Shown here: positions 8,530-34,023 of the stretch, one piece after another
How the letters are laid out: the number at the start of each line of letters is the position of its first letter
Numbering within the stretch: position 1 is the stretch's first letter
Program-made: the position numbers and the translations under genes
The notes under the pieces: model-generated
Told to the model about the DNA's origin: nothing
What the model saw: the letters and a program-made list of their open reading frames with translations, nothing else
Database searches by the model: none
Assembly: GCA_028715985.1 (NCBI GenBank)
Contig: JAQUQR010000003.1
Location: 1-64,000 of the forward strand
Direction of reading: 5' to 3'
Source of the DNA: Methanocellales archaeon
GTDB lineage: Archaea > Halobacteriota > UBA148
DNA: 64,000 nucleotides

Positions 8530-8620
8530 TGTTTGAAAGTGCCCCCACCTCTAAGTTTTAACCCCTGAAATTATTGAGCATAACAAGTATTATGTTCTAT
8601 TAGTGCCATATAAAGTTATG

Positions 8621-11322: not shown

Positions 11323-11402
11323 TATTTTAATTAATTAATAAACGTAACTGTTTAATAGGATTAGTCGTATAATACTATGAGTTTTAAATTAGGAGGAAAA
11401 TA

Positions 11403-14135: not shown

Positions 14136-14147
14136 GAGGAATGAAAG

Positions 14148-14687: not shown

Positions 14688-14764
14688 ATAGGACAAAATA
14701 GATATGATAAAGGGGAGACAACACCTTCTATCTACCACCTTTTCAATTACAGGGAGGAAATGGG

Positions 14765-15763
14765 GTGAAAAAAGGTACTGGTAGAAAGATCACGGTCACC
14801 ATAGGCTTACTTGCCATAATAGCAATGTTCAGTGCAATCAGTGCAAATGCCGCTGATGTTAGCGAGATATTGAGTAACATAATGCGACCAGATTGGGAGG
14901 CAGAGGCACAAAGTTTGAATGCGGCCAAAGATCTCTTCGCTCAGGCTTTACCAGTTGTAATAGTTCTTGGCGTCATATTGGGTCTTCTCCGAGGTAGGAG
15001 CGCAAGAAAAAAACCCATGGTTCCAGTCATTGCAAATGGGAAAGTAAAGCGGCACCCATTCAGCATATTGTTCGAGCATTGGACTCACACGATAGGATGC
15101 ATCATGTGCATCATAACCGCGGTTTTTTTGTTACTTGGAACCAGGTTTGGGTGGCTAAAGACATTCTCACCATTTTTGATGGCATACAAGCTGCACTTCA
15201 TCGGTGCAGGCATCTTGGTCTTCGCCAGTCTTTTCTACATAGTGAATCACATAATCGCCGGTGACAGAGAGATCCTACCAGTTATAAGCGATTTTAAGGA
15301 CTCAATAGCAGAGACCATGGCTATTATGGGTGTTATTGGGGATGGAGCCTTCTTCGGAATTAGGGGGTTGTATTTGCCCGAGAAACTCAAGAGACCTCTG
15401 GCCAATCTGCTTGCAAAGATAGGTGTTAAGGAACCACCCCATGCAGGGAAATGGCTTCCTATTGAAAGGGTGGAAACTCCGGCTTGGGCGATTCTCGTGG
15501 GCGCAATCATACTCACAGGAATCGTCAAGACACTCAGATATACGCGGGAACTATCCCCCACCCTCGTACATATTGCGACCAAACTTCATCTCATAGTGGC
15601 TATCCTGATACTGCTTCTCCTGATCGTGCATATCCTCACTGCTGCTGTGATACCTCCATCATGGCCACTTTTCAAGTCCATGCTAACCACTAAGGCATCT
15701 GAAGAGTATGTGAAAGAACATCACCCGGAGTGGTACGAGAAACTGAGGAGAGAGGGTAAGTAG
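14765..15763 (+). CDS. fdhC: formate dehydrogenase cytochrome b subunit
   Basis: The membrane anchor and quinone- or methanophenazine-facing subunit, of the FdnI/cytochrome b561 type. It has a signal peptide (residues 1-28), a short exposed segment, one extra helix (about 55-75), and then the four-helix core. Candidate haem histidines are in the FEHWTH helix, the YKLHFIGAG helix and the KLHLIVAILILL/IVH helix. The start is GTG 14765 with GGGAGG at 14752-14757. At 332 residues it is longer than FdnI (about 217), chiefly from the signal peptide plus first helix and an interdomain loop. The gene symbol is positional; fdhC is also used for formate transporters, which this is not. Confidence 0.82.
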   Translation: MKKGTGRKITVTIGLLAIIAMFSAISANAADVSEILSNIMRPDWEAEAQSLNAAKDLFAQALPVVIVLGVILGLLRGRSARKKPMVPVIANGKVKRHPFSILFEHWTHTIGCIMCIITAVFLLLGTRFGWLKTFSPFLMAYKLHFIGAGILVFASLFYIVNHIIAGDREILPVISDFKDSIAETMAIMGVIGDGAFFGIRGLYLPEKLKRPLANLLAKIGVKEPPHAGKWLPIERVETPAWAILVGAIILTGIVKTLRYTRELSPTLVHIATKLHLIVAILILLLLIVHILTAAVIPPSWPLFKSMLTTKASEEYVKEHHPEWYEKLRREGK

Positions 15764-17813: not shown

Positions 17814-18134
17814 CTAAAGGCGAGCTTCCTTCAGAGCGCTCTCCAGTTTATGGACCTTATCATAGTATTCTTTTAGCAATCTACGTCCCCTCTCGTTCAG
17901 CTCGGTACTGCCCCCCTCGTTTCCGCCACGCATTGAAATTACGACACCCTCTCCTAACGACTCCTTCATCTTTTGGACGAGGCCCCATGCATGTCTGTAT
18001 GACATTCCAAGTTTTTCTGCAGCCTTAATGATTGAATGCTCTTCGTCTATTGCTTCTAACAATCTTGCTCGACCCTCACCCAATACGGGCAATCCATCCT
18101 TTTCCAGCCATACTTTTGCTTTTAATTCGGTCAT
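17814..18134 (-). CDS. modE: ModE-type molybdate-responsive regulator, DNA-binding domain only
   Basis: A LysR-like winged helix as in the N-terminal domain of ModE: SIIKAAEKLGMSYRHAWGLVQKM is the recognition segment, followed by GGNEGGSTELNERG. At 106 residues it lacks the C-terminal di-MOP (TOBE) molybdate-sensing domains of E. coli ModE. It could sense through another protein or an unknown site; short ModE forms are known in archaea. Its start overlaps the stop of the ABC ATPase gene (18131-18134), so it is the last gene of the transporter operon and its level would track transporter expression. Confidence 0.85.
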   Translation of the reverse strand: MTELKAKVWLEKDGLPVLGEGRARLLEAIDEEHSIIKAAEKLGMSYRHAWGLVQKMKESLGEGVVISMRGGNEGGSTELNERGRRLLKEYYDKVHKLESALKEARL

Positions 18135-19189
18135 TGTTTTAGTATATGGATGGCAGTAGCCTTAAAGGAAACGATAACTTCGTCTCCTTCTTTAAGTCCG
18201 ATATCTTCTAGGGATCGTTTTGTGACCAGCGCAATTATGGGAAAGCTACAATTAACATTCACTTGTATAAGAGCGCCCAAAGGCACTATTTGGGTTATCA
18301 TTCCTTTGAAAGAATTTCTTGCGCTGCTCTTGTCTCTAGAGAGCACAAGTGTGATATCTTCTGGTCTGAGGCACAAACGTACCTTATCGCCGACCGAATA
18401 GTTGGATACAGCCTCTATTCTATGACCTTTAATGCTGACAATGGTAATTCCGTCTTCGTTTGACTCAATCACTCCTTCTAGGATATTCTCCACTCCAACA
18501 AATTCAGCCACTCTTTCGTTTATCGGCTCATTGAATATTTCTCTAGGTGTGCCAACTTGTACAATCTCGCCATCCATCATGATGCCAATTCTATCTGCCA
18601 GAAACATTGCCTCCGTCTGATCATGTGTGACGTGAACCATGGTGATATCCAATTCTTTCTTTATTCGCTTCAGCTCTTCTCGAAGATACTTTCTTGTTCG
18701 TGTGTCTAAGGCAGATAACGGTTCATCCAAAAGTAATATCGGGGGTTCGATGGCAATGGCTCTTGCAATAGCAACCTTCTGCTGCTCTCCGCCACTGAGC
18801 GTATCTGGATACCGATTTGCAAGGTGCGAAATATGCAACAACTCTTCAAGCTCCTCTACCTTACGTTTAATCTTGATTTTGTTCATTTTGCGCAGCTTGA
18901 GACCAAAAGCAATGTTCTCCTCGACCGTCAGAAACGGAAAAAGAGTGTAATCTTGATAGACCATACCTATGTTGCGCTTCCGTGGCGGTATATATGTAAT
19001 GTTTTGATCGTCGATGAATATTCTGCCCTTCTCTGGGCGATAAATGCCTGCTAAAGTCTCCAACAGTACAGATTTACCTGCGCCTGTGGGTCCCAAAATA
19101 ACAAAATACTCGTTATCGTAAATCTCAAGATCAACGTCACGTAAAAAGAACTCACCAAGATCCTTTGAGACGCCCTCTATTTGTATCAT
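18131..19189 (-). CDS. wtpC: molybdate/tungstate ABC transporter ATPase
   Basis: The cytoplasmic ATPase of an oxyanion importer. Walker A GPTGAGKS, signature LSGGEQQKVAIARA and Walker B ILLLDEPLSALD are intact. The C-terminal part has a TOBE/Mop-like segment ending SFKATAIHIL, which in ModC and WtpC homologues can bind molybdate or tungstate and stop transport when the metal is plentiful. ATG 19189 is preferred over GTG 19198 because GGTG precedes it. It lies 24 bp after the permease stop and is coupled to modE. Confidence 0.9.
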   Translation of the reverse strand: MIQIEGVSKDLGEFFLRDVDLEIYDNEYFVILGPTGAGKSVLLETLAGIYRPEKGRIFIDDQNITYIPPRKRNIGMVYQDYTLFPFLTVEENIAFGLKLRKMNKIKIKRKVEELEELLHISHLANRYPDTLSGGEQQKVAIARAIAIEPPILLLDEPLSALDTRTRKYLREELKRIKKELDITMVHVTHDQTEAMFLADRIGIMMDGEIVQVGTPREIFNEPINERVAEFVGVENILEGVIESNEDGITIVSIKGHRIEAVSNYSVGDKVRLCLRPEDITLVLSRDKSSARNSFKGMITQIVPLGALIQVNVNCSFPIIALVTKRSLEDIGLKEGDEVIVSFKATAIHILKQ

Positions 19190-19213
19190 TTTCACCACAT
19201 ATAAGCGTTAAGA

Positions 19214-20014
19214 TTAAAATGCATGAGTAAATCCTCCATACCGTTCAAAAATGAAGAGTGAGACAAGCGATATTATGATGAGAATCGTTGCAGACGCAAT
19301 AGCTAAATTAAGCTCACCACACGACATATTCAAGTATAATGAGATGGGTAAAGTCTCTGTTTTCAATCGTGTTGCACCAGCGACCATAAGTGCAGCGCCA
19401 AACTCTCCTATCCCCTTCGACCATGTTATAACCGAACCTGCTAAGAGTCCATCCTTGGCCATTGGTAGCGTCACCCGCCAAAATGCTTGACTTTCCGTGC
19501 AGCCGAGCGTCTTAGCGACGCGCTCATAACGCGGATTGATTCCTTGAAAAGTCCCTCGAAGTATCCTAAACATATATGGTACGTTGACAAAAAACTGGGC
19601 AATAATGATCCCTGCAGGCATGAAAACAAATACCAGCCCCATTTCAGCAAGCGATTTTCCGAAGTCAGTCGTGCCGAATAGGATCAACAATGCCACTCCA
19701 GCGACCAAAGGCGGTAAAGCTAGGGGGGCATCCAAGAAGGTGTTAACCAAAATCTTGCCCGAGAACTCGTATCTAGCTAGTGCGTATGCCACTGGTATTG
19801 AGATGGCAATACATAGAACGGTGGATACCCCTGAGGTCAGCAAGCTCAATTTTATGGCGAATCGTATTTCCTCTGTAAGCATGCTGTCCATTAACGCCGA
19901 TACCGTAGTGTGCGTGACCAAGCAGATAATTACCGCCAAAATAAAGGCGGTAAGAATTAAACTTGCCGCAATCGTGCTGATTTTAATTTTGGACTCCTTC
20001 AACTCTTCTAACAT
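19214..20014 (-). CDS. wtpB: molybdate/tungstate ABC transporter permease
   Basis: An integral membrane permease with about six transmembrane helices. The cytoplasmic EAA-like loop that contacts the ATPase is visible as RVAKTLGCTESQAFWRVTLP. The segment GEFGAALMVAGATRLKTETL is typical of ModB/WtpB. It lies between the two-headed binding protein and its ATPase with short gaps (29 and 24 bp), so the four genes from 22098 to 17814 form an operon. Confidence 0.9.
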   Translation of the reverse strand: MLEELKESKIKISTIAASLILTAFILAVIICLVTHTTVSALMDSMLTEEIRFAIKLSLLTSGVSTVLCIAISIPVAYALARYEFSGKILVNTFLDAPLALPPLVAGVALLILFGTTDFGKSLAEMGLVFVFMPAGIIIAQFFVNVPYMFRILRGTFQGINPRYERVAKTLGCTESQAFWRVTLPMAKDGLLAGSVITWSKGIGEFGAALMVAGATRLKTETLPISLYLNMSCGELNLAIASATILIIISLVSLFIFERYGGFTHAF

Positions 20015-20043: not shown

Positions 20044-22098
20044 TTATGGGTTATTTTTCCTTCCCGATATCAGATATGCTACCGCTAGGAGTCCAACGAT
20101 TGCGAAGGCTGCTTCAAATCCCGGTACGCTTGGCTCTGTTAGTGCTGGTGCTGGGGTTAGTATTGGTCTAACTGTAGGTACTGGTGTTGGTTTGGGTGTC
20201 GGTGCTGGTGCAGGAGTAGGTGCTGGCGTTGGCTTGGTTGTTGGCGTTGGCGTAGGTTCTGGTGTCTCTTGTGGGTGCCCTGGGTATGATGGTGTTGGCG
20301 TGGGTGCTGCTATTAGCGTTGGCGTAGGTGTTGACACTGAAATAGCCTCTTCGTATTCTGGATTTGGATAGGCGGTAAAGCCGTGCTTCTCAAAGATGGC
20401 TTTGCCCTCCTCCGAGGCTACGAAATCGACGAACTTTTTCGCCGTATTTGGGTACTTGGTGAAAGTCGTTGTGCCCATAGGTACGATTTGGATCTCATTT
20501 TGTTCTCTGGGTATCTCTATGACATCAATCTCTTTGACAAATTTTACTGTATCCCACCAGTTGATTGATGCATCAGCTTGGCCCATTGCGATCATCACCA
20601 TCACCTCGTTCATGGTAGGCACGGTCGCGATCACATTCGGCCAGACCTTTTCGTAGAGGTTGTTTTTCTTCAATATGTCCACGCCGGTCTTACCCGTTGC
20701 CGCAACCTGAGGATCGCCCCACACGAGTTTTACACCTTTCCTGGCAAGGTCTTCCAGACACATAATATTCGCGGGATTGCCCTTGGGCACCGTAATTACC
20801 GGTATATGGTAGCAGACCATCTGCTGGTAATCGATGAACCCCTTCTCGGCCGCGATTTCGATGTACATGGTCTCCCCAGGCATATAGCAGTCGCCCGCCT
20901 TCGTCAGCTCCATCTGGCTGAGCAGTGCATTGGAGCCAGCATAGTTATACTCTATTTTCACTCCATGTTTCTCATAAAAAATGCTTCCAATCTCGTCCAT
21001 CGGCTTTCGCATCCCGGCGCCGCAATATACCATGAGTGATGTAGCAGTTTCTTCAGGAATGGCTGCAGCTGCCCCGGTCACATAGGGTTTCAGATCCTCT
21101 GGTATACTCCCATTCCCAACAGCAGGCACAATGGCAGGTTGTCCCATATCTGAAAAGATCTTCTGTCCAGGCTTGCTGATGATAAATTTCACGAATTCCA
21201 GACCAAGATCTGCGTTATCTGCATTCTTCGGCACGGTGATGCCGTATACCACCGGCGATCCTATATTTATATTCCCATCCGATGTTTGCAATTTGACCTT
21301 TTTGTAACCATCGGCATGATCCACACTGCTTAGATCTATCTGCACAGGCAAATCGACGAAGGAGAGACCGTGCTGCACGGCTACGCTCCGGTACTCAAAT
21401 GCATAGTCAAGCCCCCCCTCCTCCACAAAGGCCACGAGCTCTACCGATTTAGGTCGTATGTCCACCTTACTGGTGTCTGGTTTCATGTCTTCCGGCGTCT
21501 TTATAAGGTATGTTCCATCCGCCTCCTCACTGATCGTAATTGCAGTTTTGTTAAGGATTAAATCATCGAATATCTGGCCATCACCGTAGTGCAACTCCGC
21601 TAGTTGAAAGACCATTACTGTACGATACCCGCAAGGGTCGAGGTTCGGATTCGAGAAGCCGAATACCACTCCATCTCGACGCAGGATCTCGTACCAGTTT
21701 TCTGGAGTTATTTCTTTTGCATAACTGCTCTTTTCAGGATTGTACGCAAGCACAAGGTCATTAGTCGCGAATCTAACGTCCCAATCGGCAAAATCTGGGT
21801 ACATCATGCTTGGTATGAGTGAGTAATCTGCGGATGCGAGCACTTCTGCTATCTTCCCAACCTCAGTTATCTGTCTTATGGCCTCAACACTGCCATGTGA
21901 CTGGCGTTGCACATCCACTCCTGGGTGCAATGCTTCAAATTGTATAGCCGCCTCTTCCAAAGGCACTGCTAAGCTCCCTGCATGGAAGACCCTTATTATT
22001 TGGGTTCCCTGTGCTCTTGCTGGTATGCAAGGCACTACCAATGTACCCAGAAGTAGTGCGATAACCACCCCTAATATCCTTAATTTTCTTTTTTCCAT
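20044..22098 (-). CDS. two-headed Mo/W-binding protein, WtpA + ModA domains, PGF-CTERM anchor
   Basis: An exported oxyanion-binding protein with two different binding domains. After a signal peptide (about 1-28), residues 30-335 form a WtpA-like domain ([20 protein letters not shown] and AFEYRS hold the carboxylates that make the WtpA metal site six-coordinate). Residues about 350-580 form a ModA-like domain (SLMVYCGAGMRKPMDEIG; YNYAGSNALLSQME). A Thr-Pro repeat linker (about 585-655) leads to [20 protein letters not shown] and a basic tail, the PGF-CTERM signal for archaeosortase anchoring. I start at ATG 22098, because GAAGGG sits well for it; ATG 22104 is alternative. Residues 1-339 are encoded by DNA identical to the gene at 29051. 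Confidence 0.88.
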   Translation of the reverse strand: MEKRKLRILGVVIALLLGTLVVPCIPARAQGTQIIRVFHAGSLAVPLEEAAIQFEALHPGVDVQRQSHGSVEAIRQITEVGKIAEVLASADYSLIPSMMYPDFADWDVRFATNDLVLAYNPEKSSYAKEITPENWYEILRRDGVVFGFSNPNLDPCGYRTVMVFQLAELHYGDGQIFDDLILNKTAITISEEADGTYLIKTPEDMKPDTSKVDIRPKSVELVAFVEEGGLDYAFEYRSVAVQHGLSFVDLPVQIDLSSVDHADGYKKVKLQTSDGNINIGSPVVYGITVPKNADNADLGLEFVKFIISKPGQKIFSDMGQPAIVPAVGNGSIPEDLKPYVTGAAAAIPEETATSLMVYCGAGMRKPMDEIGSIFYEKHGVKIEYNYAGSNALLSQMELTKAGDCYMPGETMYIEIAAEKGFIDYQQMVCYHIPVITVPKGNPANIMCLEDLARKGVKLVWGDPQVAATGKTGVDILKKNNLYEKVWPNVIATVPTMNEVMVMIAMGQADASINWWDTVKFVKEIDVIEIPREQNEIQIVPMGTTTFTKYPNTAKKFVDFVASEEGKAIFEKHGFTAYPNPEYEEAISVSTPTPTLIAAPTPTPSYPGHPQETPEPTPTPTTKPTPAPTPAPAPTPKPTPVPTVRPILTPAPALTEPSVPGFEAAFAIVGLLAVAYLISGRKNNP

Positions 22099-22129
22099 TT
22101 TCATCCCTTCGATATGAAAGTTTTTACTA
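21082..22129 (-). repeat. 1048-bp perfect duplication, copy A
   Basis: Base by base this block matches 30215-31262 (offset 9133). It covers the 5' end and WtpA domain of the two-headed binding protein plus about 30 bp of leader. Identity stops abruptly at the domain boundary on one side and 31 bp before the start codon on the other. A second shared stretch of about 90 bp (20031-20121, differing by one T in a T run) covers the anchor-coding 3' end. Confidence 0.97.
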
Positions 22130-22171
22130 TTCAATGAGCAAAGCAAATTTTGCGCCATTGGGCATAAAGGT

Positions 22172-22297: not shown

Positions 22298-23353
22298 TCA
22301 TCCACTCACAACGTGCACCGAAGTTGCTTTGAAGGTTGCGTAGACGTCATCACCATTTTGCAGTCCAAGAATCTCACGTGATTGCTTGGTAATAAGCGCA
22401 ACAAGATTGATATCTAGTTTCACCCGGGTTAAAGCGCCTATGCTCTGTAGTTCTCTTATTTTACCACTCATAACGTTCCTAGCACTGCTGTCTCCTTTGC
22501 TTTTTGATATGGTAATGTCTTCGGGTCTAACGAACACTCTCACAGCTCCATCACAATATTCTGTAACAGCGAATATAGTCATGCCAGAATTAATCTCTAT
22601 TTCAGCAATACCATTCTCCTTATTGCGAACATTACCATAGAGTATATTTTCTACACCAACAAAGTCGGCTAATTCTTCGTTCAGTGGTTTGTTAAATATC
22701 TCATAGGGTGTGCCTACTTGCATCAATCGGCCGTTCATCAATACCGCTATCCTATCAGCGAGCACCAACGCCTCCGTCTGATCATGTGTGACGTGAACCA
22801 TGGTGATACCGAATTCTTTCTTCACTAGCTTCAGCTCGTCTCTTAGGTAGTCTTTCGTTCTGGGATCTAAGGCAGATAACGGTTCATCCAAAAGTAATAT
22901 GGGGGGTTCGATGGCAATGGCCCTTGCAATAGCCACCTTCTGTTGCTCTCCGCCACTGAGCGTGCTTGGATAACGATGCGCGAGGTGCGAAATCTTCAGC
23001 CAGTTCATTATATCCTTCAATCTTGCACTATTCGTATTCGATTTTGATGTCCTCTTTAATTTCAAACCGAATGCTATGTTTTGCTCAACTGTCAAATGGG
23101 GGAATAGGGAATAATCTTGATAAATGAAGCCAATTTTCCTCTTTTCTGGGGGAATAAGCGTTACATCGCGCCCCTCAATCCAGACATCTCCTTTATCAGG
23201 GATGTGGAATCCAGCAATGGTCTCAAGAAGTAACGTTTTACCTGCGCCTGTGGGCCCTAAAATAACGAAATATTCTCCTTTTTTTACATCTAGTGTTATA
23301 TCCTTAAGGGAGAACTCTTTCCAATCCTTGCATAAGTCTCTTACTTCTATCAT
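22298..23353 (-). CDS. second molybdate/tungstate ABC transporter ATPase
   Basis: A paralogue of the ATPase at 18131, with Walker A GPTGAGKT, signature LSGGEQQKVAIARA, Walker B ILLLDEPLSALD and a C-terminal TOBE segment ending TFKATSVHV. ATG 23353 overlaps the permease stop as ATGA and has GGAG upstream; the ORF extension to 23401 is unlikely to be translated. The pair 23350/22298 has no binding protein gene of its own; the nearest is the two-headed one 200 bp downstream on the same strand. Confidence 0.9.
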   Translation of the reverse strand: MIEVRDLCKDWKEFSLKDITLDVKKGEYFVILGPTGAGKTLLLETIAGFHIPDKGDVWIEGRDVTLIPPEKRKIGFIYQDYSLFPHLTVEQNIAFGLKLKRTSKSNTNSARLKDIMNWLKISHLAHRYPSTLSGGEQQKVAIARAIAIEPPILLLDEPLSALDPRTKDYLRDELKLVKKEFGITMVHVTHDQTEALVLADRIAVLMNGRLMQVGTPYEIFNKPLNEELADFVGVENILYGNVRNKENGIAEIEINSGMTIFAVTEYCDGAVRVFVRPEDITISKSKGDSSARNVMSGKIRELQSIGALTRVKLDINLVALITKQSREILGLQNGDDVYATFKATSVHVVSG

Positions 23354-24171
23354 TTCTTTCTCCGTTGGGGCATGCGCAATAATATGAATATCACTAGGCA
23401 AATCAGAATCAGCAAAACTGATATGGGTCTTGATGCGCGAAGTCCAAAAGAGGTAAATTTCTCAAATATCAAAATCGGCGCTGATATGGGATGGTATGCA
23501 AGGATCAAAACGGCTGAGAACTCGCTTATTGCACGTCCCCAGCTTAGGATCGCTCCGCTCAGTATGGAAGGAAAAGCAAGTGGGAACGTTATTTCCCGAA
23601 ATGTTCTCCATTGGGATGCGCCTAATGAGCGAGCTACATTCTCTAAACGCGGATCAACCTCTTTAAAACCCTCTGTCGCAGTATCCACTAAATAGGGAAG
23701 GCTCATGAAGAGCATGGCAATCACAATTCCTGAATAAGCATCTGTAACTACAATACTCAACTTTCGAAGCGGTGCACCGATCAATCCATGCCGCATGAAC
23801 ACACCATATAATGCAATTCCGGCGACGACATGCGGGATCATCAAAGGAACATCCACCAAACCCTCTATTATGCTCTTACCCGCGAACTCCTTTCTTGCAA
23901 GAAAATAAGCTAAAGGGACACCGAAAAAGAAAGCGACTAAGGTAGCGATCAGAGCCATGGATATGCTGATACCGATTGACTTTAAAACGACAGGGTCGGT
24001 TGCAGCGGCAGTTAAACCCGAAAAATCTTCCGCTTGTTTGTAAAACATGTTTCCAAGCGTAATAAAAACAAAGGCAACAAGCACTAGTCCTAAAAAAAGG
24101 AAAATGGTAAAAACCCTCTCCTGCTTTATCCTCTCAAATGATAATTTCGAAATTTTTTTCATTGTATTCAT
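23350..24171 (-). CDS. second molybdate/tungstate ABC transporter permease
   Basis: A ModB/WtpB-like permease with about six helices and a cytoplasmic ATPase-contact loop (VARSLGASQWRTFREITFP). The C-terminal helix region ISEFSAVLILAYHPISAPI is the usual family pattern. It is the first gene of the minus-strand transporter run and has its own promoter at 24243-24273. It differs markedly from the permease at 19214, so the two systems are not recent duplicates. Confidence 0.88.
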   Translation of the reverse strand: MNTMKKISKLSFERIKQERVFTIFLFLGLVLVAFVFITLGNMFYKQAEDFSGLTAAATDPVVLKSIGISISMALIATLVAFFFGVPLAYFLARKEFAGKSIIEGLVDVPLMIPHVVAGIALYGVFMRHGLIGAPLRKLSIVVTDAYSGIVIAMLFMSLPYLVDTATEGFKEVDPRLENVARSLGASQWRTFREITFPLAFPSILSGAILSWGRAISEFSAVLILAYHPISAPILIFEKFTSFGLRASRPISVLLILICLVIFILLRMPQRRKK

Positions 24172-24377: not shown

Positions 24378-25187
24378 ATGAAAGGCAGGTATGAACTGAA
24401 ATCAAAACTTAAAGGAGAATCCCTTGTCAGAAAAGGGCTGCTGAGACGATACGAAAACCGTGAACAAGTGAGGATTGCACCCAATCTCAATGTCGTCAAG
24501 ATTGGGGGTCATGGCATCATTGATTATGGCGCGCCCGTAGTACTACCTCTTGTAGAGGAGATCGGCGAACTCTCGAAGAATCATCAGCTTCTCGTTGTCA
24601 CGGGGGGTGGTGTGCGTGTCCGTCACATCCTTGACATCGGTCTCGACCTTGGAATGCCGACCGGTGTGCTGGCAGAGCTTGCGGGCAAGATCAGTGAACA
24701 GAATGCGATAATGATGGCGGTCCTTCTCTCAAAGTACACTGCATTGAGAATTCATGTTTCTGATCTTTTAGAGATAACCATGCTACTTGCGATGGGCATT
24801 CTACCGGTCATGCATGGAACTCCTCCCTATGGACTGTACGAATATCCTCCAGAGATCGGGATGATTCCACCTCACCGGACCGATACGGGTACGTTCCTTA
24901 TAGCAGAGGTGTTAGGAGCAAAGAATTGCATACTGTTGAAGAACGTTGATGGGCTTTATACCGAAGATCCTTTTAAAAATCCCGATGCAGAATTGATAGA
25001 GGATATCACCGCACAGGAGCTCATTGAGATGGATATGGAGGACCTCGTTCTTGAGCGAAAGGTTGTTGAACTTCTCCGGGATGCGAATAATATTCATGAA
25101 GTGAAAATAGTCAATGGCCATAAAAGTGGCATGCTTACAAAGGTCCTTCTGGGGGAAAAGGTAGGCACCACCATCAGGTCTGGTTAA
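24378..25187 (+). CDS. molybdenum/tungsten storage protein (MoSto MosA/MosB-like)
   Basis: An amino-acid-kinase-fold protein whose sequence follows Azotobacter MosB/MosA closely: VVKIGGHGIIDYGA, TGGGVRVRHILDIGLDLGMPTG, ILPVMHGTPPYGLYEYPP, GMIPPHRTDTG, LLKNVDGLYTEDP and VKIVNGHKSGMLTKVLLG. MoSto forms a cage that uses ATP to pack polyoxomolybdate or tungstate clusters. Related uridylate kinases lack the PPY and PPHRTDTG features at these places. Only one subunit gene is present, so a homo-oligomer is expected. Its place among four Mo/W transport systems supports storage rather than nucleotide metabolism. Confidence 0.85.
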   Translation: MKGRYELKSKLKGESLVRKGLLRRYENREQVRIAPNLNVVKIGGHGIIDYGAPVVLPLVEEIGELSKNHQLLVVTGGGVRVRHILDIGLDLGMPTGVLAELAGKISEQNAIMMAVLLSKYTALRIHVSDLLEITMLLAMGILPVMHGTPPYGLYEYPPEIGMIPPHRTDTGTFLIAEVLGAKNCILLKNVDGLYTEDPFKNPDAELIEDITAQELIEMDMEDLVLERKVVELLRDANNIHEVKIVNGHKSGMLTKVLLGEKVGTTIRSG

Positions 25188-25215: not shown

Positions 25216-25572
25216 TTATGAATCTACCAATTCAATTCTCTTCTGGAGTTCAGTGAAGAGCTCGCTTCCAAGAAGTTCTTCTGTCTGTTCTCTATATTCG
25301 GTCGCCATTTTTTTGATTAATTTGAGGGTACCTTTCAGAGTTGTCGAGATCCCCACTCTTTCAACGCGGGTAATCAAGCCATCCTTCTCCATCATGGCGA
25401 AATAGGGGAGTATATAGTAGTGCGGCACTTCGAGATATTCTGCCAGTTTTCTTGTAGTGGGGAATCTTATTGCGATTGAGCCATCGGTAAAATGGATTGT
25501 AATGCACTTGTCAACACTGAGCATGATCTTTACAGCTGCCTCAAAAATATCCGCTTGGCTAAATGGCTCCAT
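25216..25572 (-). CDS. winged-helix DNA-binding protein
   Basis: A 118-residue protein with a probable winged helix in the middle (TTRKLAEYLEVPHYYILPYFAMMEKDGLITRVERVG, split here at KLAEYLEVPHYY and MMEKDGLITRVERVG) followed by a long helix that could dimerise (KLIKKMATEYREQTEELLG). No metal-binding domain is visible. It sits between the storage protein and the MOT1 permease on the opposite strand, so it could regulate one of these genes. The regulatory target is inferred from position only. Confidence 0.6.
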   Translation of the reverse strand: MEPFSQADIFEAAVKIMLSVDKCITIHFTDGSIAIRFPTTRKLAEYLEVPHYYILPYFAMMEKDGLITRVERVGISTTLKGTLKLIKKMATEYREQTEELLGSELFTELQKRIELVDS

Positions 25573-25620
25573 TCATGTTCACCATTTATTGTAAAAAAAG
25601 GATGGGGTTTTACCCCCCCA

Positions 25621-25854
25621 TCACTCTTCTTTCATGGTGCCTCGTTCCTCTTCAGGCACTGCATGGAGATATACGACCTTAGCACCGACATCCTTTGCGA
25701 TCTGTTCGATCTCGGTCTTTCTGAAGTGTCTCCCCTCAATCTTCAGGTGTGTGTCATCGCCTGTGTTATGAGTTACCGCTACAACCCTGAACATTGGCTG
25801 CCTGACGCCACTTCCTACTTTCATTCTTCCTCGAACATAGATTTTGCTGGCCAT
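25621..25854 (-). CDS. conserved small protein of unknown function
   Basis: A 77-residue protein with a well-placed ribosome binding site (GAGGTGAAAAA) before ATG 25854. It looks like a compact alpha/beta fold: MASKIYVRGRMKVGSG, RVVAVTHNTGDD, then HFRKTEIEQIAKDVGAKVVY. I do not recognise a named family. It shares a short intergenic region with the divergent MOT1 permease, so the two may be co-regulated. Confidence 0.55.
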   Translation of the reverse strand: MASKIYVRGRMKVGSGVRQPMFRVVAVTHNTGDDTHLKIEGRHFRKTEIEQIAKDVGAKVVYLHAVPEEERGTMKEE

Positions 25855-25956
25855 TTTTTCACCTCTTAACAGTTGTTATAACAGTTGGTATATAAAAACT
25901 TACGCTTTTGATGGACAAAAAGATTTTTCTTTATAGTACGAACCAGTTATACCTCG

Positions 25957-27066
25957 ATGGTCCGAATAAAGGATTTTGAATTTAGTTTAGTGGAATTGGC
26001 GGGGGCACTCGGAGATTTCGGTCCACTGAACCCATTTATCATAGGCTACATTGCAGTTTTAGGGTTAGATCCTTCCGGGATTCTCATTGCGATGGGTGTG
26101 ACAAATCTAATTGTCGGTCTAATTTACAAATTACCGTTACCCGTAGAACCTCAGAAGGCAGTCGGTGTAGTGGCTTTAAACGAACACTGGAGCCCTTCCT
26201 TGGTATACGGAACAGGCATAGGGATGGGTCTAATTTGGTTATTTTTAGCCTTCTCAAAATCGATCGGGAAAATTGCAAAAGTGATCCCTCTCTGTGTCAT
26301 CGTGGGTGTGCAGTTTGGCCTCGCTTTAACCTTGCTGAAGGAATCACTTGAACTTATTTGGACCAATATTTTTCTAGCTGCTATGGCACTCATTCTCGTT
26401 ATGTTACTGATTAAAAATAAAAAACTCCCTGCAGGACTTGCTATTTTTTTATTAGGTCTGGCTGTTGTCTTTATCTCCACCCCAGATATCACGTTGGAAT
26501 TTGGATTATATCTACCCAAAATTTATGTGCCTTCTCTTTACGATATGGGGAGAGGTCTTCTGACCGTGGGTATAGCACAGGTGGTTTTAACCCTGTCAAA
26601 TGCGGTCTTAGCTACCAGCCTCGCGGTCAATAACAAATTCCCGGGTAACAGGATTGGAGAGGAGAATTTAGCCAAGAATATAGGATGGATGAACACGATA
26701 TTCCCCTTTTTTGGGGGCATCCCAATGTGTCATGGCGCAGGTGGATTCGCCGCCCAATACTTTTTTGGTGCTCGAACAGGTGGGGCTATGCTGATGGAAG
26801 GCATCTTAGAAATTATTTTAGCCTTTTTCCTGGCAGAATCAGTTTCAACGATCTTTGGTGCCTTCCCCTTATCAATAATCGGCGTGATGCTCTTTTTCGC
26901 CGCGCTGGAACTGGGGAAATTTATGCGGACGCTTGGTAAGACATATGACATGATCATAGCCGTAACGGTTGGTGTAATTTCCCTCTTAACAAACCTTGGA
27001 ATCGGCTTTTTTGCCGGGTTGGCGCTCTGCGTGGTAAGTACAAAATATCTCAAAAAGAGTTTTTAA
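25957..27066 (+). CDS. MOT1-type molybdate/sulfate permease
   Basis: A polytopic membrane protein (about 10-11 helices) of the MOT1 family of molybdate transporters related to SulP. Family signatures are ELAGALGDFGPLNPFIIGY near the start, PLPVEPQKAVG (about 66-76) and GGIPMCHGAGGFAAQYFFGARTGG (about 246-269, cut here for length at PMCHGAGGFAAQYFFG). It lacks the STAS domain of sulfate SulP proteins. It uses no ATP, so it probably covers uptake at a different affinity range from the ABC systems. A TATA-like GTATATAAAAA lies about 60 bp upstream. Confidence 0.85.
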   Translation: MVRIKDFEFSLVELAGALGDFGPLNPFIIGYIAVLGLDPSGILIAMGVTNLIVGLIYKLPLPVEPQKAVGVVALNEHWSPSLVYGTGIGMGLIWLFLAFSKSIGKIAKVIPLCVIVGVQFGLALTLLKESLELIWTNIFLAAMALILVMLLIKNKKLPAGLAIFLLGLAVVFISTPDITLEFGLYLPKIYVPSLYDMGRGLLTVGIAQVVLTLSNAVLATSLAVNNKFPGNRIGEENLAKNIGWMNTIFPFFGGIPMCHGAGGFAAQYFFGARTGGAMLMEGILEIILAFFLAESVSTIFGAFPLSIIGVMLFFAALELGKFMRTLGKTYDMIIAVTVGVISLLTNLGIGFFAGLALCVVSTKYLKKSF

Positions 27067-27102: not shown

Positions 27103-28164
27103 TTACTGATTTTTTACCACATGCACCGAGGTTGCCTTAAAGCTTGCATAGACCTGGTCATCTACCGCGAGTTTGAGCTCTTCTGCTGCCTGTTTTGTAA
27201 TCAGTGCTACGAGCGTATTCTCGAGTTTTACCCGAACCAACGGTCCAACTGGTGTGATCTTCAAAATCGTCGAAGGCAACACATTCCGCAGACTGCTTTT
27301 TCCGAGCTCCTTTGAGAGAATGATACTTTCCGCTCTGAGGCAGAACAGAACAGCTTCTCCGGCAGGGAAGGGAGATACGCAGGTTACTTTAAATCCCCCG
27401 ATATCGACAACCGTTACCCCGCCCTCATTCGACTCCACGACGCTCGGTACGATGTTCTCCACACCGACGAATCTCGCAATCTCTCCATTTTTAGGCGAAT
27501 AAAATATCTCATGTGGCTGCCCAACTTGACTAATCTCCCCTTTCATCATCACCGCGATTCGATCTGCGAGGCGTTGACCCTGCAGTCTGTCGTGCGTAGA
27601 TATAATGATCGTGGTCTTATATTCTCGATTGATATGTGCGATCAATTCTTCTATCTTTTCCGTGGCGATGGGGTCGAGATTCGCAGTTGGCTCATCCAGC
27701 AACAACACTTCAGGCTCTGTTACGATTGCCCTTGCCAGTGCCACTCGCTGGGCCTCGCCCCCTGACAGCGTCGGCGCAATCCTCTTTGCGTAGTCCAATA
27801 GTCCAACTGTATCCAAGGCGTGTTTAACCTTTTTATCGATGCTATATCGCCCAATGCCTCGGAACTTCAACCCATACGTGACGTTGTCATATACACTAGT
27901 TTTGAAGAGGGCAGGTTTTTGGAACAGCATCGACATCTTTCTGCGTATTTCTCTTCTTCTTTTTGAAGATGCATTGGCGCCGTTAAAAAATATCTCCCCT
28001 GATGTAGGCATATCCAGAAGGTCAATAAGACGTAAAAGCGTCGTCTTACCAGAACCGGTGGGTCCAATGATGGTAAATATCTCGCCTTTTTCTATCGTTA
28101 GGTTAATATCCTTTAAAATTTCTTTTTCACCGTATCTCTTGGATAACCGCTTTACTTCTATCAT
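27103..28164 (-). CDS. tupC: tungstate ABC transporter ATPase TupC
   Basis: Walker A GPTGSGKTTLLR, signature LSGGEAQRVALARA and Walker B VLLLDEPTANLDP are intact, and the C-terminal TOBE segment ends SFKATSVHVVK. The N-terminal ATPase part differs from the two WtpC-like ATPases upstream (for example LFQKPALFKTSVYDNV in place of YQDYTLFP). It is separated by 7 bp from the TupB-type permease gene, which gives its specificity assignment. Confidence 0.9.
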   Translation of the reverse strand: MIEVKRLSKRYGEKEILKDINLTIEKGEIFTIIGPTGSGKTTLLRLIDLLDMPTSGEIFFNGANASSKRRREIRRKMSMLFQKPALFKTSVYDNVTYGLKFRGIGRYSIDKKVKHALDTVGLLDYAKRIAPTLSGGEAQRVALARAIVTEPEVLLLDEPTANLDPIATEKIEELIAHINREYKTTIIISTHDRLQGQRLADRIAVMMKGEISQVGQPHEIFYSPKNGEIARFVGVENIVPSVVESNEGGVTVVDIGGFKVTCVSPFPAGEAVLFCLRAESIILSKELGKSSLRNVLPSTILKITPVGPLVRVKLENTLVALITKQAAEELKLAVDDQVYASFKATSVHVVKNQ

Positions 28165-28171
28165 GATCGAT

Positions 28172-28858
28172 CTACCTCTGTTGAACCCGGTTCAGAATTA
28201 TATTTATAACGAACGCTAAGGACATGAGAATAATGCCAAGGGCCAGTGAGAACTCGATATTACCCATCGAGGTTTCGAGTGCGATCGCGGTCGTCAGCAC
28301 CCTTGTGTAGCCCCTTATATTTCCACCAATCATCATTGCAGCACCCACCTCGGATATTGCACGGCTATATCCTGTGATAACGGCAGCTAAAATTGCATAA
28401 CGTGCCTCTTTTATGGTTGCTCGGATGGCCTGAAATTCTGTTGCGCCCAGAGAAACGATCGTATCTCTGATCGTTTTGTCAACTCCACTCAGGGCGGAGA
28501 TGGTTAATCCAGTCATGATGGGGGCTATTAATATGACCTGTCCGATAACCATACCTGTAGGTGTAAAGAAGAATCCAAGAAATCCAAGAGGGCCTGCTCG
28601 TGAAAGTAATAAGAAGACCAGAAGCCCAATGACTACTGTTGGAAGTGCAAAAAGCGTTTGGATGATATTTATTAACCATCGCTTTCCCCGAAATTCATGA
28701 AAATGGATAAAACTCCCGGTTGGGATGAATATTAGAGATGTTATGATCATAGAAGCTATTGAAATACGTAACGTTAGGAGCGTTATATCCATAACCTCTG
28801 GATCAAGTGTGACAATGAGTTCGATTGCTTTTATTAAGCCGTTTATAATCTCGTTCAT
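28172..28858 (-). CDS. tupB: tungstate ABC transporter permease TupB
   Basis: A 228-residue permease with five to six helices. LPTVVIGLLVFLLLSRAGPLG and VSLGATEFQAIRATIKEARY (ATPase-contact loop) are typical of TupB, which is shorter than ModB/WtpB. AISEVGAAMMIGGNIRGYTRV follows. It lies 192 bp downstream of the WtpA-TupA binding protein gene and directly before tupC. Confidence 0.9.
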   Translation of the reverse strand: MNEIINGLIKAIELIVTLDPEVMDITLLTLRISIASMIITSLIFIPTGSFIHFHEFRGKRWLINIIQTLFALPTVVIGLLVFLLLSRAGPLGFLGFFFTPTGMVIGQVILIAPIMTGLTISALSGVDKTIRDTIVSLGATEFQAIRATIKEARYAILAAVITGYSRAISEVGAAMMIGGNIRGYTRVLTTAIALETSMGNIEFSLALGIILMSLAFVINIILNRVQQR

Positions 28859-29050: not shown

Positions 29051-31231
29051 TTATGGGTTATTTTTCCTTCCCGATATCAGATATGCTACCGCTAGGAGTC
29101 CAACGATTGCGAAGGCTGCTTCAAATCCGGGTATACTTGGTGCAGGCGTTGGAGCTGGTGCTGGGGTTAGTATTGGTCTGACTGTTGGCATTGGTGTGGG
29201 TTTCGGTGTAGGTGCTGGAGTTGGCGCTGGCGTTGGAGCAGGAGTGGGTGCTGGTGTTGGTTTGGGTGTAGGTGTAGGCGTTGGAGCAGGAGTTGGTGCT
29301 GGCGTTGGTGCAGGCGTTGTTACAGGATACGTTGCTGGCATCGCACACTCCTCCCATGTTGGGCAGCCGAATAATTCTTTACACGCCCCACCCGAAAGCG
29401 GATAGAAGAGCGGGCTTCCATACGTATCAACACCGTACTCGGCAATGATCTTCTGAGCCTCTTCAGATATCAAGAAGTTAACGAAATTGTTAGCCATGGT
29501 GATGTTGGTATAGGGGTGGGTTTCTGGATTTATTGCGATCACACCATAGACGTTGAGTAGGATATCCCCCTTATCAACAATCGGCACGAGATCTATATCA
29601 CCCTTAAATGCGAGGAATGTGCCAATATCTGACAGTGTGTACGCAGACTTTTCATTTGCCATGATCAGCGTGGGTCCCATGCCACTTCCAGCTTCAACAT
29701 ACCAATTTCCGGATTTTCTGATCTCTTCATAGTCAAAACCAGCATTTGCCCACACAGCCTTCTCCTTGGCGTGTGTGCCAGAGTTATCGCCTCGTGAAAC
29801 GAACTGGATTTGTGGGTTGGCTTTCCCCTTTTCCATTATCGTTTTGAACGCATCCTCAGGCTTCATCCCCTTGACTCCTGCCGGATCGCTTTCAGGACCC
29901 ACGATGACGAAATAGTTGTAGGCGAAGCATCTTCGGTTTATCCCGTGTCCTTCTGCCACGAACTGATCTTCTCTTGCTCTGTCATGTATGGTTAATACAT
30001 CCACATCTCCCCGTTGTCCGAATTCTAGTGCCTTTCCGGTTCCAGCATAAACCATGCGTAGGTCTGCATTGTATTTCTCGTCAAAGACAGGCTTCAATGC
30101 ATCGAGCAGCCCGGTATCGTAGAGACTCGTAGTCGTTGCCAGCATCAAAGTTTGCTTTGGTCCAGTGGATATTGGTACAGGCATTGGCGTTGGTGCTGCA
30201 GATACCTCAGCTAAATAGGGTTTCAGATCCTCTGGTATACTCCCATTCCCAACAGCAGGCACAATGGCAGGTTGTCCCATATCTGAAAAGATCTTCTGTC
30301 CAGGCTTGCTGATGATAAATTTCACGAATTCCAGACCAAGATCTGCGTTATCTGCATTCTTCGGCACGGTGATGCCGTATACCACCGGCGATCCTATATT
30401 TATATTCCCATCCGATGTTTGCAATTTGACCTTTTTGTAACCATCGGCATGATCCACACTGCTTAGATCTATCTGCACAGGCAAATCGACGAAGGAGAGA
30501 CCGTGCTGCACGGCTACGCTCCGGTACTCAAATGCATAGTCAAGCCCCCCCTCCTCCACAAAGGCCACGAGCTCTACCGATTTAGGTCGTATGTCCACCT
30601 TACTGGTGTCTGGTTTCATGTCTTCCGGCGTCTTTATAAGGTATGTTCCATCCGCCTCCTCACTGATCGTAATTGCAGTTTTGTTAAGGATTAAATCATC
30701 GAATATCTGGCCATCACCGTAGTGCAACTCCGCTAGTTGAAAGACCATTACTGTACGATACCCGCAAGGGTCGAGGTTCGGATTCGAGAAGCCGAATACC
30801 ACTCCATCTCGACGCAGGATCTCGTACCAGTTTTCTGGAGTTATTTCTTTTGCATAACTGCTCTTTTCAGGATTGTACGCAAGCACAAGGTCATTAGTCG
30901 CGAATCTAACGTCCCAATCGGCAAAATCTGGGTACATCATGCTTGGTATGAGTGAGTAATCTGCGGATGCGAGCACTTCTGCTATCTTCCCAACCTCAGT
31001 TATCTGTCTTATGGCCTCAACACTGCCATGTGACTGGCGTTGCACATCCACTCCTGGGTGCAATGCTTCAAATTGTATAGCCGCCTCTTCCAAAGGCACT
31101 GCTAAGCTCCCTGCATGGAAGACCCTTATTATTTGGGTTCCCTGTGCTCTTGCTGGTATGCAAGGCACTACCAATGTACCCAGAAGTAGTGCGATAACCA
31201 CCCCTAATATCCTTAATTTTCTTTTTTCCAT
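29051..31231 (-). CDS. two-headed Mo/W-binding protein, WtpA + TupA domains, PGF-CTERM anchor
   Basis: Same plan as the protein at 20044, but the second head is TupA-like. Residues 1-339 are identical to the other protein at DNA level (signal peptide plus WtpA domain). Residues about 355-615 carry [31 protein letters not shown] and [12 protein letters not shown], the oxyanion-binding segments of TupA. A Thr-Pro-Ala repeat linker (about 630-690) leads to [20 protein letters not shown] and the same basic tail, a PGF-CTERM signal. The start is ATG 31231, six bases after ATG 31237. It is followed by tupB and tupC. The TupA head should feed TupBC; the partner of the WtpA head is unclear. Confidence 0.88.
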
Positions 31232-31262
31232 TTTCATCCCTTCGATATGAAAGTTTTTACTA
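30215..31262 (-). repeat. 1048-bp perfect duplication, copy B
   Basis: Identical to 21082-22129. The identity begins where the WtpA domain ends and runs through the start codon into the leader. Promoters above the two copies are unrelated, so the genes keep separate regulation despite identical 5' coding halves. Confidence 0.97.
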
Positions 31263-31610: not shown

Positions 31611-32303
31611 TCACCTTCTCAGGATTATCTTGAACTCTCTCGCGCCCTCTGTGCCCTTCAAAGACGAAATCATGCCATTGATTATATTCGCAATCATATC
31701 TCTGGTAAAACCACCTAAAGGAATGCTTTTTCCATCTGCCTCTAAGAAGACCGGTAGCTGTGAAAATGAGCGGCAATCCTCCAATACTCTCTCTTGGGCA
31801 TATATGAGCTCTGCCATTTTCCTGCAATCAAAGCCACATTTCTTGCAATCAATACCTGGTAACTGCCTTAGGATTCTTTCTATATCCAGCTCTCGTTTGA
31901 TGTATTGCAGGATTTCTTCCAGATTATCCTCATATCTAAAAATGGTGTTGGGCCTCTCCTCGATTTGTCCCAAAGCAATTTTTGGTATGCTCTCGTTTTT
32001 ATAACCCTCGACCAAAATCAAATCTGGTTTTGAAATCGTCTGGATCATTTGGAGGATTAAGTTGAGTTGCATCCCCTCGTTTATCATAAACACAGTCTCA
32101 CCGGGAGAACTAGCTACCACAGTGTTTACGCCCGCATTTCTGTATCTCCACGTATCCTTTTTTTCAGTGTCAATCGAAAAACCCTCATGCGGGATGTGCT
32201 TTATCGTAGCAATATCATATCCATCCGCAACCAGTATCTTTAAAAGCTTTTCTATGAAGGTGGTTTTTCCTGATTTTGAATAGCCATAAACGCCAAGTAT
32301 CAT
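31611..32303 (-). CDS. mobB: molybdopterin-guanine dinucleotide biosynthesis protein MobB with Cys-rich insert
   Basis: A P-loop protein that helps MobA make the dinucleotide cofactor. The N-terminus has Walker A GYSKSGKTTFIEK and the MobB core (TIKHIPHEGFSIDTEKKDTWR, then DLILVEGYKNESIPKI, each under the family pattern). After residue 150 a further domain carries CKKCGFDCRKMAELI and a later Cys, a possible iron-sulfur or zinc site found in archaeal MobB proteins but not in E. coli MobB. It is the distal gene of the run of cofactor genes from moaA; moeA ends 14 bp upstream. Confidence 0.88.
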   Translation of the reverse strand: MILGVYGYSKSGKTTFIEKLLKILVADGYDIATIKHIPHEGFSIDTEKKDTWRYRNAGVNTVVASSPGETVFMINEGMQLNLILQMIQTISKPDLILVEGYKNESIPKIALGQIEERPNTIFRYEDNLEEILQYIKRELDIERILRQLPGIDCKKCGFDCRKMAELIYAQERVLEDCRSFSQLPVFLEADGKSIPLGGFTRDMIANIINGMISSLKGTEGAREFKIILRR

Positions 32304-32317
32304 TCGATCACCTTACC

Positions 32318-33526
32318 TTACATCAACAATATGACTTCGACCTCATCACCAGCCTCGATGAGATCCACATCAGCTGGTATGTCCACGTAGCCATCTGCAT
32401 CTGCCATGCTCGTTATAGCTCCGGATTCCTTGAATACTGGGTGGGCAACTTGTCCCTCCAACCTCACCGTTAGGAACTGGCTCCTTCCAAGCGAGGAGAC
32501 CACACGCCTCGATATTCTCGCTTTGACGATTGTAAACCTCTTTGGGGGTAATCTCGCAATTTTTCTAACGGCTGGAAGCAAGAAGCGGTATCCATTACTC
32601 AAACAAGATGTGGGATATCCGGGTATCCCGAAAACGAGCTTTTTGTCAACGATACCACATAAAGTGGGTTTACCTGGTTTTATCTGGACGCCATGGAACA
32701 AAATAGTGCCAACCTCTTCAATCACATTGTGGAGAATATCCCTTTCACCTACGGAGCTACCCCCTGAGAAGGAAATCAAATCGTATTCCAATGAGTTTTT
32801 CACCGCAGCTCGAATGCTCTCGTTTGTATCTGGAACTATCTCAAACTTAATAGGTGCTCCACCGTTCTCTTCTACGATGGATGAGAGAGTGTATGAATTT
32901 ATGTCATAGACTTGACCCTCTTTTAGCTCGCTACCAAGGTCTGCGATCTCATCGCCGGTTGGGATAATCGCCACCCTTGGCTTTTCATAAACATTTATTT
33001 TTTGAATTCCAAGTGCTGCCAAAGCACCGATCTTGCTCGGATTTAGCACTTCCCCCGGCTTTAGTACGATGCTACCCGCCGCTATGTCCTCACCCATGGG
33101 AGAAACGTTCTCTTTGGGGTATACGGGCTTAAACATCTTCACCTCCGCTCCAATTTGATCAGTGCTCTCAACCATCATTACCGCATCTGACCCCGAGGGC
33201 ATTTTGCATCCTGTTGAAATTTGAATGCACTCCCCTCTGTGCACGATTTTATCGCTAACCTCTCCTGCATATATCTCATCAATTTTTCTCAAAATCTTAG
33301 GCTCAAAGTTATTGGCACCATATGTGTCCTCTGCCCTGAGAGCATATCCGTCCATGGCAGCTCTATCGAATGGGGGGACATCTATTTCTGCTATTACGTC
33401 CCCAGACAAAACCCTGCCAAGAGATTTTTTGATGGAGATTGACTCAGTCCGATCAATTGGCTTCAAGGCCTTTTCCATGATTTTCAATGCCTTTTCCAGC
33501 GGAATCAGCGATTTAAATGGCTTCAT
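32318..33526 (-). CDS. moeA: molybdopterin molybdenumtransferase MoeA
   Basis: Inserts molybdate (or tungstate) into adenylylated molybdopterin. Domains in order are the N-terminal beta domain (AEIDVPPFDRAAMDGYALRA), the SGCKMPSG region, the MogA-like domain (IPTGDEIADLGS, SFSGGSSVGERD) and a C-terminal domain with GIPGYPTSC. The start is ATG 33526, which overlaps the moaB stop as ATGA; the ORF continues to 33616 only as frame overlap. At 402 residues the length is normal. Some archaea have separate MoeA copies for Mo and W; only one is seen here. Confidence 0.93.
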   Translation of the reverse strand: MKPFKSLIPLEKALKIMEKALKPIDRTESISIKKSLGRVLSGDVIAEIDVPPFDRAAMDGYALRAEDTYGANNFEPKILRKIDEIYAGEVSDKIVHRGECIQISTGCKMPSGSDAVMMVESTDQIGAEVKMFKPVYPKENVSPMGEDIAAGSIVLKPGEVLNPSKIGALAALGIQKINVYEKPRVAIIPTGDEIADLGSELKEGQVYDINSYTLSSIVEENGGAPIKFEIVPDTNESIRAAVKNSLEYDLISFSGGSSVGERDILHNVIEEVGTILFHGVQIKPGKPTLCGIVDKKLVFGIPGYPTSCLSNGYRFLLPAVRKIARLPPKRFTIVKARISRRVVSSLGRSQFLTVRLEGQVAHPVFKESGAITSMADADGYVDIPADVDLIEAGDEVEVILLM

Positions 33527-34023
33527 TTGTTCGTCTCCCACACCATATGTCCGAGTTCCGGCAGGATCAACTTTTTCATGCCCAGCTCGACGGCATCTAC
33601 GGATCCGGGCATGCATATTACGATTTTATTTTTTATCGTTCCGGCTATAGCGCGGCTCATCATTGCTGCGCTTCCCATGTGCTCATAACTTAGGAACCGG
33701 AATATATCCCCAAAGCCGTCCAATTTTTTATCAAGCAGTTCCGATATGGCCTCTATGGTGACATCTTTTTTCGAGATGCCTGTGCCCCCATTGGTGATTA
33801 TGACCTGTACGTCGGAATCGATTAGATCTTGCACTGCTTTTTGAATTGCCTTTAGGTCATCTTTCATGACTTGGTACGCTACTATCTCATGACCGCTCTT
33901 TACCAGCAACTCTTTGATCAGCTTGCCTGAATCGTCGCTCTCCTCAGTTCTGGAATCGCTGAAAGTCAGAACTGCACATCTCACACTCCTCACATGACTT
34001 TTATGCTCCTCATGCGATCGCAT
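33523..34023 (-). CDS. moaB: molybdopterin adenylyltransferase MoaB/MogA
   Basis: Adenylylates molybdopterin before metal insertion by MoeA. The signature TNGGTGISKKDVTIEAIS is complete, and TFSDSRTEESDDSG marks the N-terminal substrate loop. At 166 residues the length fits. The gene is tightly packed: its ATG shares a base with the moaE stop and its stop overlaps the moeA start. Confidence 0.93.
   Translation of the reverse strand: MRSHEEHKSHVRSVRCAVLTFSDSRTEESDDSGKLIKELLVKSGHEIVAYQVMKDDLKAIQKAVQDLIDSDVQVIITNGGTGISKKDVTIEAISELLDKKLDGFGDIFRFLSYEHMGSAAMMSRAIAGTIKNKIVICMPGSVDAVELGMKKLILPELGHMVWETNK

Follow-up and report, generated by a model that had tools for sequence, protein, structure and literature searches.

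The gene at 24378–25187 (+) of a 64,000-nucleotide stretch from a Methanocellales archaeon (contig JAQUQR010000003.1, positions 1 to 64,000; hereafter the window) encoded a protein whose sequence placed it in the molybdenum storage protein (MoSto) family, nearer to MosA/MosB than to other amino acid kinases. It is probably a single-chain molybdenum/tungsten (Mo/W) storage protein, which would form an ATP-using homo-oligomeric cage and act together with a partner protein under winged-helix control. The evidence obtained comprised the sequence family, the separation from UMP kinase, the gene context, the co-occurrence of genes, and a palindrome. A literature search, which did not cover subscription papers, turned up no account of MoSto from archaea or Geobacter, and the single-chain module with its partner, which occurs in methane-associated archaea and in iron-reducing bacteria, is apparently undescribed so far. 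The features of the window are listed in Table 1.

Table 1. Positions of the MoSto-type gene and of related features in the window.
Feature	Position	Strand	Basis or remark
Formate-dehydrogenase-like Mo/W-bisPGD catalytic subunit	11403..14135	+	profile matches
ModE-type DNA-binding domain only, without TOBE domain	17814..18134	-	72.7 bits, under the 98.5-bit cut-off
WtpC-type ATPase, second	18131..19198	-	profile matches
Mo/W ABC transporter permease	19214..20014	-	profile matches
Substrate-binding protein, WtpA + ModA domains, PGF-CTERM	20044..22158	-	fusion may be an assembly artefact
Mo/W ABC transporter ATPase (WtpC)	22298..23401	-	profile matches
Mo/W ABC transporter permease, WtpB-like	23350..24171	-	300 bits, under the 340-bit cut-off
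Single-chain MoSto-type protein, amino acid kinase fold	24378..25187	+	269 aa; ORF, homology and fold
118-aa winged-helix protein	25216..25572	-	downstream of the partner, same strand
77-aa basic partner protein	25621..25854	-	family without Pfam or NCBIfam match
Candidate operator ATAACAGTTGGTAT	25878..25891	.	one mismatch from ATACCA-NN-TGGTAT
MOT1-type molybdate transporter (PF16983)	25957..27066	+	Pfam
Mo/W-type ABC ATPase, third	27103..28164	-	profile match
TupB-like permease	28172..28858	-	176 bits, under the 320-bit cut-off
Substrate-binding protein, WtpA + TupA domains, PGF-CTERM	29051..31237	-	fusion may be an assembly artefact
MobB, MoeA and MoaB/Mog-type Mo/W cofactor genes	31611..34023	-	profile matches

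The MoSto-type ORF was complete and uninterrupted, started with ATG, and contained all three sequence blocks quoted in the initial annotation. A sequence search of the PDB set with the window protein showed that the 11 top matches were all molybdenum storage protein subunits. Similarity was full-length, with 196 bits for MosB (E 8.6e-57) and 174 bits for MosA, while the best UMP kinase reached 51 bits; the reading as an archaeal MoSto-type protein, made earlier for exactly this ORF, was borne out. The only Pfam assignment was to PF00696, the broad amino acid kinase family. No NCBIfam equivalog was matched at its own cut-off, the best being the archaeal UMP kinase (72 vs 158 bits). The single-chain AlphaFold2 model had a mean pLDDT of 82.9, with an unreliable loop at 151–165 (below 50), and a fold search with this predicted structure matched MoSto entries with E values of about 1e-22; the best UMP kinase reached 1e-13. 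Orthologues in relatives were 88–95% identical to the window protein. The initial annotation had regarded the blocks as specific to MosA/MosB, which held in part: IPP[HY]R[TA]D[TA]G and PPY were common to MosA and MosB and missing from the UMP kinase of the same genome, but H146 (in 'HGTPPY') and H248 (in 'VNGHKSG') were present in neither MosA nor MosB.

Only one strong match was found in the genome, in line with the single subunit described before. The only other relative (C3:85161-85823) was a canonical archaeal UMP kinase with 295 bits against the cut-off of 158, so a genome lacking any other UMP kinase gene, raised earlier as grounds against the MoSto assignment, was not what was found. 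The window protein shared the Pfam superfamily and the overall fold with archaeal UMP kinase (TIGR02076), but scored far below that cut-off; UMP kinase identity was ruled out by this low score and by the separate 295-bit gene.

The phylogeny against UMP kinase and MosA/MosB that had been proposed as a check separated the two families: in a tree of 78 rows, the MoSto and UMP kinase rows were split with support of 98/98. In the tree without UMP kinases, the single-chain rows formed one side of a branch (100/97), with the MosA, MosB, and Desulfobacterota-pair rows on the other. An AU test in which the window protein was constrained with the UMP kinases gave p 0.55, in an unrooted tree whose long outgroup could be attached anywhere within MoSto. 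The root of the MoSto family was not placed because the outgroup was very long and the tree unrooted. A grouping of MosA with the first genes of the Desulfobacterota pairs was not rejected (AU test, p 0.29-0.47). The Geobacterales rows were nested inside the archaeal branch, and this nesting suggests that the gene has been transferred.

Alignment of the single-chain rows with MosA and MosB showed that K41, G43, G44, R80, R82, H83, N109, P149, P164, R167, D169, and G171 were common to all. Both the amino acid kinase fold and the conserved nucleotide-site lysine were present in the window protein; this Lys41 occurred in 166/166 single-chain rows and was aligned with beta-Lys42, the residue changed in PDB 6RIS. 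MosA residues Glu129, His130, His140, and His156-158 were not kept in the single-chain rows. Glu129 and His156 are covalent Mo8 ligands in Azotobacter vinelandii MosA (PMC4504029). In the window protein, His126, Gly152, and Leu136 were aligned to the ligand positions Glu129, His156, and His140, respectively. Judged from the alignment, the fold and the nucleotide site are kept and the cluster site known from MosA is rebuilt; with its ligands replaced, any stored cluster would be held differently. In the archaeal/Geobacterales branch, H45 was present in 137/145 rows (otherwise Tyr), H248 in 143/145, and H126 in most. H146 was common to most single-chain forms, and H146 and H166 were also frequent in the Desulfobacterota single-chain rows.

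The system thus compared resembles A. vinelandii MoSto (MosA/MosB; PDB 2OGX/4F6T/6GU5) in full-length homology, amino acid kinase fold, the IPP[HY]R[TA]D[TA]G and PPY blocks, the invariant nucleotide-site Lys, and a family distinct from UMP kinase. It differs in having one gene instead of the mosB-mosA pair, in His45 and His248, which are specific to the single-chain archaeal/Geobacterales branch, and in its surroundings, where Mo/W uptake genes and the 77-aa partner adjoin and no nitrogenase does. Compared with the MosAB heterohexamer of diazotrophs, the second subunit, the MosA ligands, and NifH were all missing from the window protein or genome.

In the window, three Mo/W ABC transporter sets surrounded the MoSto gene, and the start of the WtpB-like permease gene lay 206 bp from that of MoSto, in divergent orientation. 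An independent contig (L056) from a congener supported this gene order: it had the MoSto, winged-helix, partner, and Tup-type transporter genes of the window and, next to them, MobB/MoeA/MoaB; in contrast to the window, no MOT1 gene lay between partner and transporter. Both substrate-binding proteins (20044–22158 and 29051–31237) had an N-terminal WtpA part, fused to ModA and TupA, respectively, and shared a 1,048-bp block of 100% identity; TupA of L056 was unfused, with its own signal peptide. The fusions reflect either recent gene conversion or fusion, or an assembly chimera. A further cluster (8603–15763, +) encoded an Fe-S/FlpD protein, a nitrate-reductase-delta-like chaperone, the Fdh-like catalytic subunit, an Fe-S subunit, and a cytochrome b561-like protein, which probably constitute a membrane formate-dehydrogenase-type complex. 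Its catalytic subunit (11403–14135) is a likely user of the stored metal.

The Mo/W context was compared between 71 distinct MoSto loci, each flanked by 5 kb or more of sequence on either side, and 21 control loci, mostly out of MoSto-bearing genomes; because many of the 71 shared a genus, the counts were not independent. Only Mo/W-specific markers were counted, because generic ABC ATPases were matched in 3/21 controls. Such a marker was found within 5 kb of MoSto in 58/71 loci and in 0/21 controls: TupA in 44 of the 71, MOT1 in 30, ModA in 15, WtpA in 11, and MoeA in 6. The context recurred in three unrelated groups; at some loci, including several distant Desulfobacterota loci, none of the tested markers lay within 5 kb. 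Among the Mo/W binding proteins encoded near MoSto, TupA (tungstate-type) was the most frequent, and its presence in 44/71 loci therefore makes tungstate plausible as at least one cargo. The MOT1-type transporter, found here in an archaeon and beside MoSto in 30/71 loci, was listed in eukaryotes only by a 2018 survey of molybdenum use based on comparative genomics; the words storage, MosA, and MoSto were all missing from the text of that survey.

The window genome (1.5 Mb, 96% complete) encoded formylmethanofuran dehydrogenase (FwdB) elsewhere; mcrA was not found in it, nor was NifH at E<=1e-60, which agrees with the lack of nitrogenase remarked on in the initial annotation. In the phylum, a strong NifH match occurred in 9/65 MoSto genomes and 67/323 others (Fisher p 0.23, kinship ignored). 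A link to nitrogenase was ruled out for the window genome by the missing NifH, and as a rule for the phylum by these proportions.

Clustering of neighbouring genes gave a seemingly conserved family of antisense ORFs (25492–25869, +), which was an artefact and was discarded. After its removal, the real 77-aa ORF (25621–25854, -) came out of the clustering. Its profile detected a member in 158 MoSto loci, including Geobacterales and a deep Desulfobacterota branch, and in 0/21 controls. Among 382 genomes of the phylum, 67 had the partner, namely all 64 MoSto genomes (64/64) and three without detected MoSto (Fisher p 9e-70, uncorrected for relatedness). Those three were incomplete MAGs of one genus; MoSto was not found in the stretches examined, one contig broke off immediately behind the partner gene, and one of the partner copies contained internal stops. 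The 77-aa family and its co-occurrence with MoSto are new here.

No significant match to the partner was found among Pfam, NCBIfam, PHROGs, PADLOC, and PDB profiles, and no relatives were found in viral contigs or, with a Desulfobacterota member as the query, in plasmids. The predicted pI of the partner was 9.5. In a diverse alignment, K4, I5, R8, R10, G16, P20, H43, R45, A58, and L63 were invariant and E48 nearly so, a set of residues compatible with contact to an oxyanion or nucleotide. At most archaeal loci, the partner and winged-helix genes form a putative operon.

The product of the latter gene (25216–25572, -) had a predicted winged-helix structure (pLDDT 93.4) that weakly resembled folds of the DtxR/GntR/MarR type. 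It was present in 62/388 genomes, 59 of which had MoSto, and is a probable regulator of the MoSto module. A search made without prior assumption revealed ATACCA-NN-TGGTAT as the top shared dyad between the divergent MoSto and partner genes. When up to one mismatch was allowed, the 1.2 Mb of MoSto loci contained 60 copies of the palindrome, and 45 of these lay upstream of MoSto; the 418 kb of controls contained none. The window site (25878–25891) lay between the partner/winged-helix operon and MOT1; matches with two mismatches occurred in the window at chance level. The palindrome was absent from the Geobacterales loci, which also had no winged-helix gene, and neither element was detected in the Geobacterales and Desulfobacterota with MoSto and partner. 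In archaea, the winged-helix protein and the palindrome complete the module, which they may regulate.

In phylum-wide genome samples, relatives of the window protein were found in 67/394 genomes and 28/136 genera at the threshold of E<=1e-25. A contig scan found 157 relatives, of which 80 were kept: Methanocellales-labelled MAGs (95% identity), Methanoculleus, Methanolinea, Methanoregula, Methanospirillum, Methanocalculus, Asgard Borrarchaeota/Sifarchaeum, Geobacterales, and one Anaeromyxobacter MAG. MoSto-type proteins occurred in 4/119 genomes of the Asgard sample and in 18/247 from the Geobacter phylum; some of the latter belonged to a deeper branch, at 41-50% identity.

Tandem MoSto pairs were present in three of these 18 genomes (L161, L162, L163). 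Their members were 49-54% identical, and the partner was not found in the stretches examined beside them; they are possible intermediates to, or parallels of, MosAB. Tandem MoSto-partner modules were also seen in one methanogen genus (L050, L051, L174, L175), with a partner of its own beside each MoSto copy. These copies were 80-84% identical, and the modules are a recent duplication, separate from MosA/MosB.

A. vinelandii MoSto is an ATP-driven store of Mo/W oxyanions (PMC6448029). By analogy, the window protein would build a cage of identical subunits, probably six of them as a counterpart of (alpha-beta)3 MoSto, and would use ATP to concentrate molybdate and/or tungstate supplied by the neighbouring Wtp/Mod/Tup/MOT1 transporters. 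The partner would work with this cage, perhaps at the point where oxyanions enter or leave or in a role of the second subunit, and the winged-helix protein would control the module via the ATACCA-NN-TGGTAT operator. The metal would be handed back to cofactor assembly for enzymes of the formate dehydrogenase type and for formylmethanofuran dehydrogenase, and not for nitrogenase; these pterin enzymes are proposed as recipients because the Fdh-like subunit and FwdB were present and NifH was not found. Mop/Tub TOBE-domain stores offer a comparison: Tub of E. limosum is likewise a small intracellular tungstate/molybdate store for tungstoenzymes, but has an unrelated TOBE fold, subunits of about 7 kDa, and 8 oxyanions per hexamer, and the available part of that source reports no ATP use (PMC11980592).

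Other functions were weighed against this proposal. A Mo/W-responsive ATP-binding sensor or signal protein would bind few oxyanions and report the metal level to the transporters or the winged-helix protein via the partner, with no bulk store. The loss of the MosA cluster ligands, the cotranscription of partner and winged-helix genes at most archaeal loci, and the complete co-occurrence of the partner with MoSto would all suit such a role, but it seems unlikely: in Geobacterales and Desulfobacterota the core pair was independent of that regulator, and the similarity to MosA/MosB spanned the full length. High-affinity uptake and cofactor synthesis genes without export genes in the neighbourhood speak against a sink that detoxifies surplus tungstate or molybdate in place of a reserve, which was judged improbable; storage and buffering are, however, not exclusive, MoSto shields the nitrogenase of A. 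vinelandii from tungsten (PMC6448029), and E. limosum Tub may detoxify tungstate (PMC11980592).

It would be very surprising if the protein were a nucleotide or small-molecule kinase (a UMP kinase paralogue or one with a new substrate) that merely adjoins transporters. It does belong to PF00696, and close plasmid homologues are annotated 'uridine kinase', but the genome had a separate canonical UMP kinase, the score of 72 bits lay below the cut-off of 158, the MoSto-specific blocks were conserved, and the Mo/W context recurred in unrelated groups. An ATP-driven Mo/W oxyanion store that feeds pterin enzymes would be the best explanation and the most economical reading of these data.

On a broader scale, we tentatively suggest, as a possibility and not an expectation, a distinct and widespread Mo/W storage class. 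In this class a homo-oligomeric MoSto cage would depend strictly on the basic 77-aa protein, which would take over tasks of the second subunit (gating of oxyanions or nucleation of clusters), and would hold its clusters with other residues than MosAB; it would mainly serve Mo/W pterin enzymes, not nitrogenase, and in archaea would have a dedicated winged-helix regulator with the ATACCA-NN-TGGTAT operator. The MoSto family was common in methane-associated archaea, present in Asgard and Geobacterales, and tied to Mo/W uptake, not to nitrogen fixation. If storage is the true function, it would show how CO2 reducers dependent on W/Mo enzymes buffer scarce metals. The partner protein and the palindrome are directly testable handles. 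The results also correct the 'uridine kinase' annotations of MoSto relatives. On Azospirillum plasmids (L136, L137), where the partner was not found in the stretches examined beside mosBA, the beta subunit was annotated as uridine kinase or UMP kinase.
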